Shown piece after piece: positions 27,613 through 33,629 of a stretch of DNA of 64,000 bases. The stretch's first letter is position 1. The number at the start of each line of letters is the position of its first letter. Location of the stretch: positions 1,950,995-2,014,994 of the forward strand of contig JAHBZH010000001.1 in NCBI GenBank assembly GCA_019635535.1. Reading direction: 5' to 3'. Made by a program: the position numbers and the translations under genes. This stretch comes from Sphingomonas sp. GTDB lineage: Bacteria; Pseudomonadota; Alphaproteobacteria; Sphingomonadales; Sphingomonadaceae. A model generated the notes under the pieces. The model was not told the DNA's origin, did no database searches, and saw nothing but the letters and a program-made list of their open reading frames with translations.

Positions 27613-28821
27613 ATGCAATCGCTGGACGCACAGGAACGGGCCGCAATCACGCGCGCCGCCGATGCGCCGATGCTGGATCAGGTCATGGCCTGGTCCGCGA
27701 TCAACAGCGGCTCGCGCAATCTGGACGGCCTGGCGACCATGGCCGGCCTGCTCGCCGACTCCTTTTCCGTGCTGCCGGGCGAGCTGGCGCTGTTCGATCC
27801 GGCGCCGGTCGAGGCGATGCTGCCTGACGGGGCGCTGCGGTCGGTGCCGCATGGCCGCAACCTGCATCTGAGGGTGCGGCCCGAGGCCCCCGTCCAGCTC
27901 CTCTTCACCGGCCATATGGACACGGTGTTCGGCGTCGATCATCCCTTCCAGACCGTCTTCTGGCGCGAGGAAGGCGTGCTCGGCGGACCGGGCGTCGCGG
28001 ACATGAAGGGCGGCATCGCGGTGATGCTCGCGGCCCTGCAGGCGATCGAGGCAGTCGGCGCACCCGGGCTCGGCTATGAAGTCGTCCTCAACAGCGACGA
28101 GGAGGTCGGCTCGCCCGGCTCGGGGGCGTTGATCGCGGCGGCGGCGCGCGGCAAGGCGGCGGCCTTGACCTACGAGCCCTCCGCCCTCCCCGACGGCACC
28201 CTTGCCGGCGCGCGGCCGGGCAGCGGCAATTTCTCGATCCGGATCACCGGCCGTGCCGCCCATGCCGGGCGCAATCCGGAGGAAGGCCGCAACGCGCTGC
28301 TGGCCGCCGCCGATCTCGCGCTCCGGCTGGCCGCCGGCAAGCGCGACGGGCTCAGCGTCAATCCGGCGAAGATCGACGGCGGCGGGCAGAACAATGTCGT
28401 GCCGGACCATGCCGTACTGCGCGTCAACCTGCGCCCCCGCTCGCCGGAATTACAGGCCGCGGCGCAGGCTTTGCTCGACGACAGCATCGCGGCGGTCGCG
28501 GCTGCGCATGACGTTTCCGTCCACGTCCATGGCGGCTTCGCCCGCGCGCCCAAGCCGCTCGACGACAGGGCGCTTGCCCTGTTCGGGCTCGTAAAGCGCT
28601 GCGGCGCCGATCTCGGCCAGGACATAGACTGGCGTGACACGGGCGGAGTGTGCGACGGCAACAACATCGCCGCCTGCGGCGTGCCGGTGGTGGATACGAT
28701 GGGGGTGCGCGGCGGCGCGATCCATTCGGACCAGGAATTTCTGATCGCGGCCAGCCTGGCCGAGCGCGCGCAATTGTCCGCGCTCACCATCTTGCGGCTG
28801 GCCAAAGGGGAGGGTTTGTGA
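27613..28821 (+). CDS. M20-family zinc peptidase/deacylase coupled to astA
   Basis: 402 residues of the M20/M25/M40 aminoacylase-type family. The metal ligands are seen in FTGHMDTVFG (His, Asp), LGGPGVADMKGG (Asp), NSDEEVGSPGSG (catalytic Glu pair) and IHSDQEFL (His). The dimerisation domain has GRAAHAGRNPEEGRNAL. The stop overlaps the astA GTG, so the three-gene unit M20-astA-astB is one operon. A role in removing the succinyl group or trimming arginine-derived N-acyl compounds is inferred from context. Confidence 0.9.
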   Translation: MQSLDAQERAAITRAADAPMLDQVMAWSAINSGSRNLDGLATMAGLLADSFSVLPGELALFDPAPVEAMLPDGALRSVPHGRNLHLRVRPEAPVQLLFTGHMDTVFGVDHPFQTVFWREEGVLGGPGVADMKGGIAVMLAALQAIEAVGAPGLGYEVVLNSDEEVGSPGSGALIAAAARGKAAALTYEPSALPDGTLAGARPGSGNFSIRITGRAAHAGRNPEEGRNALLAAADLALRLAAGKRDGLSVNPAKIDGGGQNNVVPDHAVLRVNLRPRSPELQAAAQALLDDSIAAVAAAHDVSVHVHGGFARAPKPLDDRALALFGLVKRCGADLGQDIDWRDTGGVCDGNNIAACGVPVVDTMGVRGGAIHSDQEFLIAASLAERAQLSALTILRLAKGEGL

Positions 28822-29837
28822 GCTTCAGGGTGCGTCCGGCGAAAGCCGGGGATTTCCAGGCGATCTACGAAATGGCGAAGCTGACCGGCGGCGGCTTCAC
28901 CAATCTGCCCGCCGACAAGGGCACTCTGGTCGCCAAGCTCGCCCGTTCCGACAACGCGCTGGCGCGGACCGAGGACAGCGCGGAAGGCGACCTGTTCGTC
29001 TTCGTGCTCGAAAATGCCGAAACCGGCCAGATTCGCGGCACCTGCCAGGTGTTCAGCCGGGTCGGCATCCGCGAGCCCTTCTACAGCTACCGGGTCAGCA
29101 CGCTCACCCAGACCTCGCCGGAACTGGGCCGGACCTTCCGCGCCGAGATGCTGACGCTCTGCACCGATTTCGAGGGGAGCTCCGAAGTGGGCGGCCTGTT
29201 CCTCCATCCGAACGAGCGGGCCGGCGGGCTCGGCGTGCTGCTGGCGCGCAGCCGCTACCTGTTCATCAGGCTCCACCGTGCCCGCTTCGCCGACAAGGTG
29301 CTGGCCGAATTGCGGGGCGTGATCGACGAGGCCGGCGGCTCGCCCTTCTGGGACGCGATCGCCGGGCGCTTCTTCGGCATGACCTTCCAGGAGGCCGACA
29401 GCTTCAACGGCGCGCACGGCACCCGCTTCATCGCCGATCTCATGCCCAAGACGCCGATCTACACCGCGATGCTGCCGGAAAGCGCGCGCGCGATCATGGG
29501 CGTCCCCCACCCCTCCGGCCGCGCCGCGATGCGGATGCTGGAGCAGGAAGGCTTCACCGGCGACGGCTATGTCGACATTTTCGACGGCGGCCCGACCATG
29601 GCCGCCGCGACCGACAATATCCGCACGATCCGCGAGGCGCGCCAACTGACCTTGAGCGAGATCGGCGAAGCGCCGGACGCGATCCGGATGATGCTCGCCG
29701 CCGGCGACCGGCGCGATTTCGCCGCCGGCTATGGCAAGGTCGCGATCCGGGACGATGGTTCGGCGACGCTGGACGCGGCCAGTGCCGCTCTGCTTGGGCT
29801 GGAAGTGGACGACGCCTTCCTCGCCGTTGGGCGCTAG
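28818..29837 (+). CDS. astA: arginine N-succinyltransferase
   Basis: 339-residue acyltransferase, the first step of the arginine succinyltransferase route: it moves succinyl from succinyl-CoA to arginine. The N-terminus FRVRPAKAGDFQAIYEMAKLTGGGFTNLP and the middle ...EVGGLFLHPNERAGGLGVLLARSRYLF... are characteristic, with the GNAT acetyl-CoA site within. The GTG start (28818) overlaps the M20 gene stop, with GGGGAGGG before it. It is 3 bases ahead of astB. Confidence 0.94.
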   Translation: MSFRVRPAKAGDFQAIYEMAKLTGGGFTNLPADKGTLVAKLARSDNALARTEDSAEGDLFVFVLENAETGQIRGTCQVFSRVGIREPFYSYRVSTLTQTSPELGRTFRAEMLTLCTDFEGSSEVGGLFLHPNERAGGLGVLLARSRYLFIRLHRARFADKVLAELRGVIDEAGGSPFWDAIAGRFFGMTFQEADSFNGAHGTRFIADLMPKTPIYTAMLPESARAIMGVPHPSGRAAMRMLEQEGFTGDGYVDIFDGGPTMAAATDNIRTIREARQLTLSEIGEAPDAIRMMLAAGDRRDFAAGYGKVAIRDDGSATLDAASAALLGLEVDDAFLAVGR

Positions 29838-29840
29838 GCC

Positions 29841-31094
29841 ATGGCGCTGGTCGAGATCAATTTCGATGGGATCGTCGGGCCGACCCACAATTATGCGGGG
29901 CTGAGCTTCGGAAATCTCGCCGCCACCGCCAACAAGGGCGAAACCGCCTATCCCCGCGCCGCCGCGCTGCAGGGGATCGCGAAAATGCGGCACAATCTGC
30001 GGCTCGGGCTCGTCCAGGGTCTGCTGCTGCCGCACCGCCGGCCGGATCATGATTGGCTGGCCTCGCTGGGTACCAGCGCGGAGCAGGCGTCGGACACGCT
30101 GCTCGCCGCCGCCCTCTCCGCCTCGTCCATGTGGGCGGCCAATGCGGCGACCGTCTCCCCGGCCCCCGATACGGCGGACGGGCGTTGTCACCTGACGGTC
30201 GCGAACCTCAATACGATGGCGCATCGCAGCCACGAATGGCCGGAGACGCTGGCGCAGCTCCGCCTCGCCTTTGCCGACGCGGCGCATTTCGCCGTCCATC
30301 CGCCCGTCCCCGCCACCTTCGGCGACGAGGGCGCGGCCAATCATATGCGCCTCGCCGCGCATCACGGCGCGCCGGGCGTGGAGGTCTTCGTCTATGGCGT
30401 GCGCGGCGGCGCCTTTCCGGCGCGCCAGCATGTCGAGGCGAGCCGGGCGCTGGCGCGGCTGAACCGGGTCGATCCGCGGCGCAGCCTGTTCGTCGCCCAG
30501 TCCGAGGAGGCGATCGCCGCCGGCGCCTTCCACAACGATGTCGTGGCCGTCGCCAACGAACATGTCCTGTTCGCCCATGAGCAGGCCTTCGCGAACAAGG
30601 ACAGCTTCTACGCCGACTTGCGGCGCCTGCTGCCTGAGGTCGAGATCGTCGAGGCGCCGGCCAGCCTGGTCAGCCTCGAAGACGCTGTGAAATCCTATCT
30701 CTTCAACGCCCAGCTCGTCAGCCTGCCCGAAGGCGGCATGGCTTTGGTGCTGCCCGAGGAGGCACGTGAAACGCCGCGCGTCTGGGCCTGGCTGGAACAG
30801 ATGGCCGCCGGCAACGGGCCGATCCGCCGGCTCGCACTGGTCGATGTGCGCCAGTCCATGGCCAATGGCGGGGGCCCGGCCTGCCTGCGCCTGCGCGTCG
30901 TCGCCGATCCCGCCACGGTCGATTCCCGCTTCCTGGTCGATGAGACGAAGCTGGACGCGATCGCGGCGGTGATCGCCGAGACATGGCCCGAGGCGGTCGC
31001 GCCCGACGGTCTCGTCGATCCCGCCTTGTGGGCACGCGCGGCCGAGGTACGCGGCGCGCTGCTCGATCTGCTGGGTCTTTCCGAGCTGGCCTGA
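29841..31094 (+). CDS. astB: N-succinylarginine dihydrolase
   Basis: 417 residues. The opening MALVEINFDGIVGPTHNYAGLSFGNLAATANKGE is the AstB signature, with the catalytic-region GDEGAANHMRLAAHHGAPGVEVF and the HNDVVAVANEHVLFAHEQAF segment (His and Asn/Asp of the guanidine-modifying fold). It hydrolyses N2-succinylarginine to succinylornithine, CO2 and ammonia. astC, astD and a typical AstE are not in the window, so the rest of the pathway would be encoded elsewhere or by the M20 gene upstream. Confidence 0.96.
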   Translation: MALVEINFDGIVGPTHNYAGLSFGNLAATANKGETAYPRAAALQGIAKMRHNLRLGLVQGLLLPHRRPDHDWLASLGTSAEQASDTLLAAALSASSMWAANAATVSPAPDTADGRCHLTVANLNTMAHRSHEWPETLAQLRLAFADAAHFAVHPPVPATFGDEGAANHMRLAAHHGAPGVEVFVYGVRGGAFPARQHVEASRALARLNRVDPRRSLFVAQSEEAIAAGAFHNDVVAVANEHVLFAHEQAFANKDSFYADLRRLLPEVEIVEAPASLVSLEDAVKSYLFNAQLVSLPEGGMALVLPEEARETPRVWAWLEQMAAGNGPIRRLALVDVRQSMANGGGPACLRLRVVADPATVDSRFLVDETKLDAIAAVIAETWPEAVAPDGLVDPALWARAAEVRGALLDLLGLSELA

Positions 31095-31145: not shown

Positions 31146-31331
31146 ATGCCCGCCAAGTCCGCCGCCCAGCAAAAGGCCGCCGGCGCCGCTCTGTCCGCCA
31201 AGCGCGGCGACACGCCCAGGAGCAAGCTCAAGGGCGCTTCCAAGTCGATGGTCGAATCGATGAGCGAGAAGGAGCTTGAGGAGCTCGCCTCCACGAAGCG
31301 CAAGGGCAAGCCCGAGCGCGTCGGGAACTAG
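31146..31331 (+). CDS. DUF3008 family small basic protein
   Basis: 61 residues, MPAKSAAQQKAAGAALSAKR at the start and MSEKELEELASTKRKGKPERV at the end, rich in Lys, Ala and Ser. This matches DUF3008, a family of small hydrophilic proteins of unknown function common in alphaproteobacteria, perhaps stress-related. It has no partner gene next to it: astB ends 51 bases upstream. The ribosome site lies in a palindrome. The last four bases overlap the convergent caspase-like gene. Confidence 0.9.
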   Translation: MPAKSAAQQKAAGAALSAKRGDTPRSKLKGASKSMVESMSEKELEELASTKRKGKPERVGN

Positions 31332-32881
31332 TTCGCCGGGCGGTTCAGCCGGACGATCACGTCGTCGATATGGACGCCGCCGCGCTCGATCAGCAGGTTC
31401 TGGTAATTGCGCTCGTCCTCCCGCGTGGTCGCCGGAATGTCGCCCTCCACGCGGAAACGGCGGCGGACATAGGTGGACAGCTCGCCCGCCGTGACGATCC
31501 CGTCGCCGTCGTCGTCCGCCTCGCCGGTTATGCCGGCGCGCAGGAAATAGGACAGGAACCCGCCCGCCTGGAAACGGCTGGCGACGAGGCTGGTGAGATC
31601 CTCCTCCGAGCTGAACATGCCGACCACGTTCGGCCGGTCGACCAGGCTGCGGAAGCCGCCCGCATAGCAGGCGTCGATCACCAGCAGCGACATGCGCGCC
31701 TGCACGCTGGCGAAGAGCGGCGCCAGCTCGCTGTCGCGCATCGCCCTGTCATAAAGTTCGATCGTTTCCGCGCGCCCGTCCAGTTCAGCCGCACTGACGT
31801 CCACGTCGATCTGATCGCCATGGCCGGAAAAGAGGAACAGGAACAGGTCCTCCGGTCCGGCCGCAGCGGCGATGCGGCGGAAGGCGTCCGACACGCTTTT
31901 GCGTGTCGCCTGCGCGTTGGTGAGCGCGACGCTGGCCGGATGGAGCAGGCCGGCTTCGCGCAGGTCCGCATAGAGCTCGGATGCATCGTCGTCCGTGTTC
32001 GGCAGGTTGGAGGTGCGGCCGCCATAATCGGCCACGCCGACCGCCAGGGCGATCACCCGCGGCCCGCCCGGCACGTTCGCCTGGCGCGCCAAGCCGGGAC
32101 TCCGCTCCAGGGTCAGACGATATTCGCCCGCCGCACGCGGCAAGAAGCTCGTCGCCACGATCACATATTCGCCGTCCTCCGGCAGCACGACGTCGATCCG
32201 GCTGTCGGTCGATCGCGCGCCTTCGATTCGGCCGTCGTCGTTGAAATCCTCCGTGCCGTCGGGGTGGCGGAGCGCCAGATAGGTGTCGAGCTTGGCCGAT
32301 CGCATCTCGATCCGTACCCGCTCGCCGCGCCGTGCGGTGAAGCGGTACTGATCGGCATAATGATCGGCTTCGCGCCGTCCGTCGCGCGCCTCGAGGCGGC
32401 CGTTCACGCTGGCGCCGAGCTGGATCGCGGCGGCCGGCGGCGGCCGATCGATCGCCGCGTCCGCCGGCGGCGTGGCGGCCGACAGGCGATAGACGCCCGT
32501 CTCGCCCGGCCGGAAGGAGGTGACGGAGATGCGGTAGGTGCCGTCGGACGGCAGCTCGACGACGAGCCGGCTGTCCAGTCCTTCGCCGCCGTCCGCGTCA
32601 TCGTTGATGAGGTTGAAGCCGTCCGGGCCGGTGACCAGCAGGAAGGCATCGAAATCGGAGGAAGAAAGTCGCAGATCGACGCGCTGCCCACGCCGTCCCT
32701 GCAGGACATAGACATCCTCGAACTTGCCGGAGCGGCGGCGGACATCGCCCTGGGCGAGCGTGCCGTCCACGCTTTGCCCGGAGGCGATCGCCACCGGCGC
32801 AGGCCCCGCGCTGTCCTGCGCATACGCCGGCGACAGGCCAAGCGACAAAGCCGCCGCGACGATGAAACCCCAACGCGTCAT
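31328..32881 (-). CDS. secreted caspase-like (C14) protein with PPC repeats and EF-hand
   Basis: 517 residues. Residues 1-21 form a signal peptide (FIVAAALSLGLSPAYA). Two beta-rich pre-peptidase-C-like repeats follow at about 30-135 and 150-258 (each with GxYRxSVTSF/GEYVIVATSF-type strands). A caspase/metacaspase domain spans about 274-450. It has the catalytic histidine His354 in FSGHGDQ and the cysteine Cys405 in IDACYAGGF. Near the end, residues 456-467 give a textbook EF-hand calcium loop (DDDGDGIVTAGE). It is predicted to be periplasmic or exported. The substrate is unknown. The start at MTRWGF is chosen for the signal peptide. Confidence 0.85.
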   Translation of the reverse strand: MTRWGFIVAAALSLGLSPAYAQDSAGPAPVAIASGQSVDGTLAQGDVRRRSGKFEDVYVLQGRRGQRVDLRLSSSDFDAFLLVTGPDGFNLINDDADGGEGLDSRLVVELPSDGTYRISVTSFRPGETGVYRLSAATPPADAAIDRPPPAAAIQLGASVNGRLEARDGRREADHYADQYRFTARRGERVRIEMRSAKLDTYLALRHPDGTEDFNDDGRIEGARSTDSRIDVVLPEDGEYVIVATSFLPRAAGEYRLTLERSPGLARQANVPGGPRVIALAVGVADYGGRTSNLPNTDDDASELYADLREAGLLHPASVALTNAQATRKSVSDAFRRIAAAAGPEDLFLFLFSGHGDQIDVDVSAAELDGRAETIELYDRAMRDSELAPLFASVQARMSLLVIDACYAGGFRSLVDRPNVVGMFSSEEDLTSLVASRFQAGGFLSYFLRAGITGEADDDGDGIVTAGELSTYVRRRFRVEGDIPATTREDERNYQNLLIERGGVHIDDVIVRLNRPAN

Positions 32882-33034: not shown

Positions 33035-33119
33035 GCGGGAAGGGGCGACATAGGGGCAAGATCGCAGGGGCGCAAGCCCTTGGTTGCCCGCTTCGCCGCC
33101 CCCGAATAGAGAAGGCCCG

Positions 33120-33629
33120 ATGAGGTTCAGATCCACTCCGGCCTTGGCGGCCATGGCGTTCGCTTTGCTGCTCGGCGGCTGCGTGTCGCAAGGCCCTTTT
33201 CCCTCGCTCGCGCCGCGCCCCGGCGAGGGCGATTTCACGCTGGCCGAGCCGGATCGCCCGGCACCCGTGACCGCCGACGATCCGGCGCTGCGCCGCCAGG
33301 TCGAAACGCTCCGTGCAGGCGCGCAGGATGGGCGCCGCGCTTTCGATGACGTCTATGACGAAGGACATGCGGCGATCGGGCGGAGCGGCGTGGAAGGCTC
33401 CGACGCATGGGTCGAGGCGCAACAGGCTCTCTCCCGTCTCGAAGCCGCACGCGCCACGACCGCCGACGCTTTGACCCAGCTTCATGGGCTGGCGACCGAG
33501 CGCGCCGATCTTCCCACCAGCCGAGCGGATTTCGCGCTGATCCAGAGCGCTATCGCCGAGGTCGAAGACATAGATCAGGCACAGCAGGCGCGGATCGCGC
33601 CGCTGCGGGAGCGCCTTACGCCCCGCTGA
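33120..33629 (+). CDS. putative lipoprotein, helical
   Basis: 169 residues. The N-terminus ends in a lipobox (ALLLGGC, cysteine at residue 20), so the mature protein should be lipid-anchored. The rest is hydrophilic and mostly helical with Ala/Glu/Arg-rich segments, likely a coiled-coil surface protein. No family is recognised. The start at MRFRSTPALAAM (33120) gives the proper signal; the longer frame does not. It overlaps the convergent carbonic-anhydrase-like gene by 14 bases. Confidence 0.75.
   Translation: MRFRSTPALAAMAFALLLGGCVSQGPFPSLAPRPGEGDFTLAEPDRPAPVTADDPALRRQVETLRAGAQDGRRAFDDVYDEGHAAIGRSGVEGSDAWVEAQQALSRLEAARATTADALTQLHGLATERADLPTSRADFALIQSAIAEVEDIDQAQQARIAPLRERLTPR

Follow-up and report, generated by a model that had tools for sequence, protein, structure and literature searches.

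The window analyzed here, a stretch of 64,000 nucleotides, comes from a Sphingomonas sp. genome of 2.75 Mb (completeness 99.8%) and carries on its minus strand an open reading frame of 517 codons that begins with an ATG at 32881 and ends with a stop at 31328. Its product combines a probable export signal, two N-terminal PPC repeats and a caspase-type catalytic domain, as follows:

31328..32881, minus strand: coding sequence of the predicted exported PPC-PPC-C14 orthocaspase, 517 aa (open reading frame, Pfam, relatives)
32819..32881, minus strand: putative signal peptide, residues 1-21, MTRWGFIVAAALSLGLSPAYA (sequence, hydrophobicity rule, pLDDT below 50 at residues 1-25)
32516..32719, minus strand: PPC domain 1, residues 55-122, with a conserved NDD at 93-95 (Pfam PF04151, motif conservation)
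32141..32359, minus strand: PPC domain 2, residues ~175-247, with NDD at 214-216 (PF04151; strands 174-245 in the AF2 model)
31457..32056, minus strand: Peptidase_C14 catalytic domain, residues 276-475 (PF00656; model m0ba4fde19619; Foldseek to metacaspases)
31820..31822, minus strand: catalytic His354 in SGHG (C14 dyad position, alignment of relatives)
31667..31669, minus strand: catalytic Cys405 in DACY (C14 dyad position, alignment of relatives)

In a Pfam scan, the two PF04151 stretches scored 58.8 bits (E 9.8e-16, cut-off 25.9) and the Peptidase_C14 domain 49 bits (E 8.1e-13, cut-off 21.4). The N-terminus, MTRWGFIVAAALSLGLSPAYA followed by Q, reads by eye as a Sec-type signal peptide, and a crude hydrophobicity rule concurs. 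The first-pass annotation of the gene as encoding an exported caspase-like protein with a signal peptide and two PPC domains is therefore upheld. The number of PPC stretches varies from 1 to 5 per protein in the five relatives checked.

Full-length relatives (71-45% identity) were found in 7 instances among 119 genomes, 6 of them in the same genus, and the gene is accessory, being held by only 7 of the 26 genomes of its genus with the window copy included. A scan of GTDB genomes returned 80 loci, the closest named relatives belonging to Sphingosinicella. These loci come from Sphingomonadales, Brevundimonas and other Caulobacterales, Hyphomonadaceae and a few myxobacterial or deltaproteobacterial MAGs, together with C14 proteins of Bacteroidota, Spirochaetota and Chloroflexota.

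The neighbors in the window are astA, astB, DUF3008 and tRNA-Arg, with astA-astB (28752-31094) convergent with the caspase gene. A convergent astB adjoins the gene in five of the six other genomes of the genus (L034, L035, L036, L037 and L007) and is missing from the stretch examined in the sixth (L006); a tRNA-Arg is found close by in the window as well as in L006, L007 and L037, and DUF3008 is beside the gene in some genomes. Outside the genus the neighbors are different, with none shared across families, and PADLOC defence models found no match in the neighboring genes. The PADLOC "caspase" model itself matched at 5-130 of 453 only, within the caspase core of the window protein. An operon or defence partner was accordingly rejected, none being conserved across genera, and the earlier description of a stand-alone gene with no defence gene beside it stands. 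A functional link to arginine, in which astAB and tRNA-Arg would accompany an Arg-cleaving enzyme, was likewise discarded; since astB was not found beside relatives outside the genus, the astAB/tRNA-Arg arrangement is probably inherited synteny only. Also nearby, at 33084-33629 between tRNA-Arg and a hexapeptide-repeat (gamma-carbonic-anhydrase-like) gene, is a gene for a putative lipoprotein (LLGGC) that has no Pfam match and has relatives in L007 and L037.

The catalytic domain and its known relatives

Foldseek searches matched the models to GSU0716, metacaspases, MALT1, caspases and legumain (TM 0.55-0.68). The closest solved C14 protein by sequence is GSU0716 of Geobacter (PDB 3bij, E 2.5e-27), a single-domain protein whose profile match stops at the Cys, with no EF-type loop matched. 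Type I and II metacaspases (TbMCA2, Yca1, Candida glabrata MCA1 and AtMC4) have the same fold (TM about 0.6-0.68, profile E values from 1e-22 to 1e-14) and share with the window protein the invariant Asp two residues before the Cys and an acidic E-x-DG-x-x-E region after the His. Their profile matches mostly stop near the Cys, with no clear p10, and the C-terminal helices of AtMC4 align weakly with the far end of the domain, where the loop described below is found. The window protein differs from metacaspases in having Thr296 in place of the specificity-pocket Cys, and in carrying an EF-type candidate Ca2+ site rather than the p20/280-loop sites. Orthocaspases such as MaOC1 have in common with it the C14 p20 fold, the His-Cys dyad and a tendency toward added domains, while the window protein is set apart by its predicted export, its N-terminal PPC repeats and an EF-type loop near the C-terminus. 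The genome that contains the window encodes a second C14 domain (L001, C1:1135802-1136512) in a 323-aa open frame that has no EF-type loop.

The dyad, described as intact in the first-pass annotation, does occupy the C14 dyad positions; His354 and Cys405 are conserved in alignments A1 and A2 and invariant in A2, and, like D299 and D403, they show little or no variation among the relatives. The dyad probably cleaves peptide bonds, although a dyad alone is insufficient proof of protease activity. The alternative that the protein is an exported pseudoprotease or binding protein, its dyad intact and its ligands bound mainly through the PPC and caspase folds, draws on the pocket: in an alignment to Yca1, the metacaspase specificity-pocket Cys (TbMC2 Cys92) falls on Thr296, and loss of this Cys lowered the activity of both AtMC9 and TbMC2 (PMC5756287). 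However, a long-standing pseudoenzyme would be expected to lose its dyad, and the near-invariance of the four residues makes this alternative very unlikely in our judgement. The substitution by Thr296 does leave any Arg/Lys specificity uncertain.

For the full-length model, the top Foldseek match is to the PPC-like collagen-binding domains of ColG (PDB 5iku), reached through the PPC part; the PPC repeats have a conserved NDD motif in common, and the window protein is without a collagenase module. It is possible, given the NDD motif and the ColG fold, that the PPC domains are the Ca2+ module of the protein. The literature on PPC Ca2+ dependence is mixed, and the PPC segment from G. hollisae needs none (PMC6168687).

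An EF-hand-like loop near the C-terminus

Near the end of the catalytic domain lies a predicted helix-loop-helix made up of the following parts:

31520..31558, minus strand: helix ahead of the loop, residues 442-454 (DSSP on the AF2 model)
31481..31516, minus strand: EF-hand-type loop DDDGDGIVTAGE, residues 456-467 (pattern, alignment, AF2 model)
31442..31489, minus strand: helix behind the loop, residues 465-480 (DSSP on the AF2 model)

The loop has 12 residues with EF-hand ligands at positions 1, 3, 5, 9 and 12, and in a scan of the window (300 stop-to-stop ORFs, 75,631 aa) with a PROSITE-type EF-hand pattern, DDDGDGIVTAGE is the sole match; shuffled copies of the window protein matched in 82 of 20,000 cases. 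AF2 models were built for the full-length protein (64 sequences, mean pLDDT 87.3, pTM 0.76) and for the catalytic domain (57 sequences, mean pLDDT 91.2, pTM 0.91). Both contain the helix-loop-helix, with block pLDDT values of 92-96 in the loop region. The structure prediction proposed in the first-pass annotation thus models the loop as part of a helix-loop-helix toward the C-terminus of the caspase domain. A three-residue strand (462-464) covers loop positions 7-9, and the second helix begins at position 10. Within the domain, confidence is lowest for residues 432-441, directly before the first helix (block pLDDT 57). The window protein has no EF-hand family match in a Pfam scan taken to E values of up to 1, and the loop is best named EF-hand-like, as a superfamily profile match is absent; it probably arose within C14.

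Ligand positions are strongly conserved among relatives. Scored by alignment rather than by pattern, 69 of 73 aligned relatives, from Sphingomonadales, Caulobacterales, Hyphomonadaceae and other groups, carry D/N at loop positions 1, 3 and 5 together with E at position 12. Absence of the loop from all close homologues, which the first-pass annotation had named as a refuting result, is therefore not what the alignment shows. Of the four exceptions, three carry a single inserted residue and the fourth is truncated at the end. Over 22 relatives of less than 75% identity, positions 1, 5, 9 and 12 (D/N, D/N, T/S, E) are near-fixed, with entropies of 0.57, 0.68, 0.44 and 0, as compared to 3.4, 2.1 and 1.9 at positions 2, 4 and 6. 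Judged from sequence, this alternation is as expected of metal ligands and would fit them better than any acidic turn. The loop had been called perfect in the first-pass annotation; its location at 456-467 and its ligand positions hold up, while Gly6 does not. Position 6 is mostly Arg (34), Gly (18) or Asp (10) in the 69 relatives, and Arg in 6 of 7 orthologues as opposed to Gly in the window copy, so the canonical Gly6 is not a conserved feature.

Several loci depart from this pattern. Eight of myxobacterial or deltaproteobacterial type (L095, L102, L103, L151, L153, L155, L156 and L158) have one extra loop residue, as in DTDPADGVLTVGE; this insertion may disrupt or change the metal site in these relatives. 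In L094 (Brevundimonas) and L097 (a Caulobacteraceae MAG), the reading frame leaves the family within the catalytic domain through a frameshift or assembly error.

The loop and export signals across C14 proteins

C14 proteins at large were drawn through Pfam in four groups, and because each sample consists of the highest-scoring matches, the counts per phylum are not unbiased frequencies. A loop pattern matched in 5 of 30 proteins from Bacteroidota, 4 of 29 from Chloroflexota and 16 of 28 from Spirochaetota; a looser pattern has a chance rate of 3.3% per shuffled tail. Safer figures are 3 of 30 for Bacteroidota, where the pattern matches in L161 and L180 sit elsewhere and look like chance, and 3 of 29 for Chloroflexota, where the match in L190 likewise looks like chance. 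Nearly always, the loop in other phyla sits right behind the helix next to the catalytic core on its C-terminal side. Among C14 proteins of Pseudomonadota (mostly Alphaproteobacteria), the 30 with the best scores all lack it, the single looser-pattern match there (L134) being discarded as chance. A loop general to all C14 proteins is rejected by this last sample. A loop peculiar to the window protein is rejected too, given that it recurs in relatives and that C14 proteins from at least four phyla have it. A search of plasmids returned only remote C14 relatives. Plasmid-borne C14 proteins with the loop are one of a Runella rosea plasmid, with DRDQDKAITAFE, next to FHA/PP2C genes (L248) and one of an Azospirillum plasmid, with DRDGDGVLSKGE, next to two further caspase genes (L249). 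A tree was built from 127 C14 domains with the loop left out, using alignment columns no further than 14 past the Cys, and on it the loop trait needs 9 changes as compared to at least 28 in 200 shuffles; since many deep branches are weakly supported, gain and loss of the loop are indistinguishable on this tree.

The same sample bears on whether the loop holds metal at all. Its acidic residues could instead cap the last helix and shape the turn with no metal bound, and T-x-x-E ahead of the last helix is indeed common in C14 proteins that lack D-x-D-x-D: among 31 loop-less proteins, 19 have T/S at position 9 and 19 have E/D at position 12. Going by sequence, T-x-x-E in these proteins is a capping box where the last helix begins, and T/S9 and E12 are consequently weak evidence for metal. 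The specific evidence is D-x-[DN]-x-[DN] with free residues between, the part that loop-less proteins do not share. Two observations speak against a metal-free turn: the conservation of positions 1, 3 and 5 with 2, 4 and 6 left free, and the loops of other phyla, in which all 30 have D at position 1 and D/N at both 3 and 5, and Ser, though allowed by the pattern, is never used. We therefore consider a metal-free turn unlikely. That the loop of the window protein binds metal is, from its sequence and modeled structure, a likely conclusion, and the odds that stability or activity depends on the site being occupied appear roughly even.

Loop-bearing C14 proteins also tend to begin with a signal-like sequence. 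Under one hydrophobicity rule applied to all, and counting loop-bearing proteins with intact 5' ends, such a start was present in 40 of 41 loop-bearing and 37 of 76 loop-less proteins, the former count being inflated because loop-bearing genes have more candidate starts (median 8 versus 2). The difference persists when only the first ATG is considered (28 of 41 versus 28 of 76, p 0.002) and when the PPC group is excluded (26 of 27 versus 37 of 76). This association is not independent of ancestry, with only 1 independent pair on supported branches. Six short Spirochaetota C14 proteins (L224, L225, L226, L231, L232 and L240) have lipoprotein-type signal sequences together with the EF-type loop.

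Calcium as a possible marker of location

Orthocaspases have been described as lacking p10 and as calcium-independent (PMC5756287, PMC7475262), an independence that one review credits to the missing p10, from one characterised enzyme (PMC5756287). MaOC1 of Microcystis is reported to be Ca2+-independent (PMC7475262). EF-hands were noted in seven archaeal orthocaspases in a 2019 survey, as an additional N- or C-terminal domain (PMC6426788). These likewise join C14 and EF-hand in one prokaryotic protein, and, by that description, their extra terminal domain contrasts with the window loop, which lies inside the caspase fold. The open literature searched mentions only these archaeal motifs, to which other papers could add; a survey of prokaryotic caspase homologues from 2012 has no mention of EF-hands or of calcium (PMC3501461). 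The analogy with plant metacaspases drawn in the first-pass annotation finds no support for the loop, as the literature assigns the Ca2+ sites of metacaspases to p20 and to the "280-loop" of p10 rather than to an EF hand (PMC5756287, PMC7206013).

In the simplest reading, to which we give a chance of about one in two, the window protein is an orthocaspase that is exported and has a structural Ca2+ site toward its p10-like end. The PPC beta-sandwiches would hold or display the orthocaspase in the periplasm or outside the cell. The EF-hand-type loop, lying between the two final helices of the caspase domain in the p10-equivalent region, would form the structural Ca2+ site. Calcium outside the cell exceeds cytosolic calcium by orders of magnitude, and for this reason the site could hold the enzyme immature until export. 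In the cytosol, where Ca2+ is sub-micromolar, it would be expected to stay empty; once the protein is exported it would fill and stabilise or complete the caspase fold. Ca2+ would then serve as a location marker and not as a graded signal.

By analogy with metacaspases, Ca2+ on the loop might instead act as a regulatory switch that triggers autoprocessing or substrate cleavage, as the first-pass annotation suggested. The place of the loop in the p10-like end of the domain would suit such a switch, and residues 432-441, given their low confidence, may be a flexible segment able to respond to it. However, periplasmic Ca2+ tracks the medium and would therefore make a poor fast signal, and a conserved partner gene was not found. 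While metacaspases are indeed Ca2+-activated (PMC5756287), their sites are elsewhere in the domain, and a switch of this kind seems improbable here.

The structural site, if it is one, may extend beyond this protein. Rather tentatively, a large set of exported bacterial caspase relatives in multiple phyla could have an EF-hand-like Ca2+ site within the caspase fold, in place of the metacaspase p10 site, with the step in Ca2+ from cytosol to outside switching the enzyme on as it is exported. Given that an EF-hand-like loop is conserved at a single fixed position in exported C14 proteins from several phyla, a subset of the family is predicted to depend on calcium, and the published view of orthocaspases as calcium-independent becomes directly testable through these proteins. 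Such a loop-bearing C14 protein would be a cheap test case, calling for one soluble domain and three mutants.
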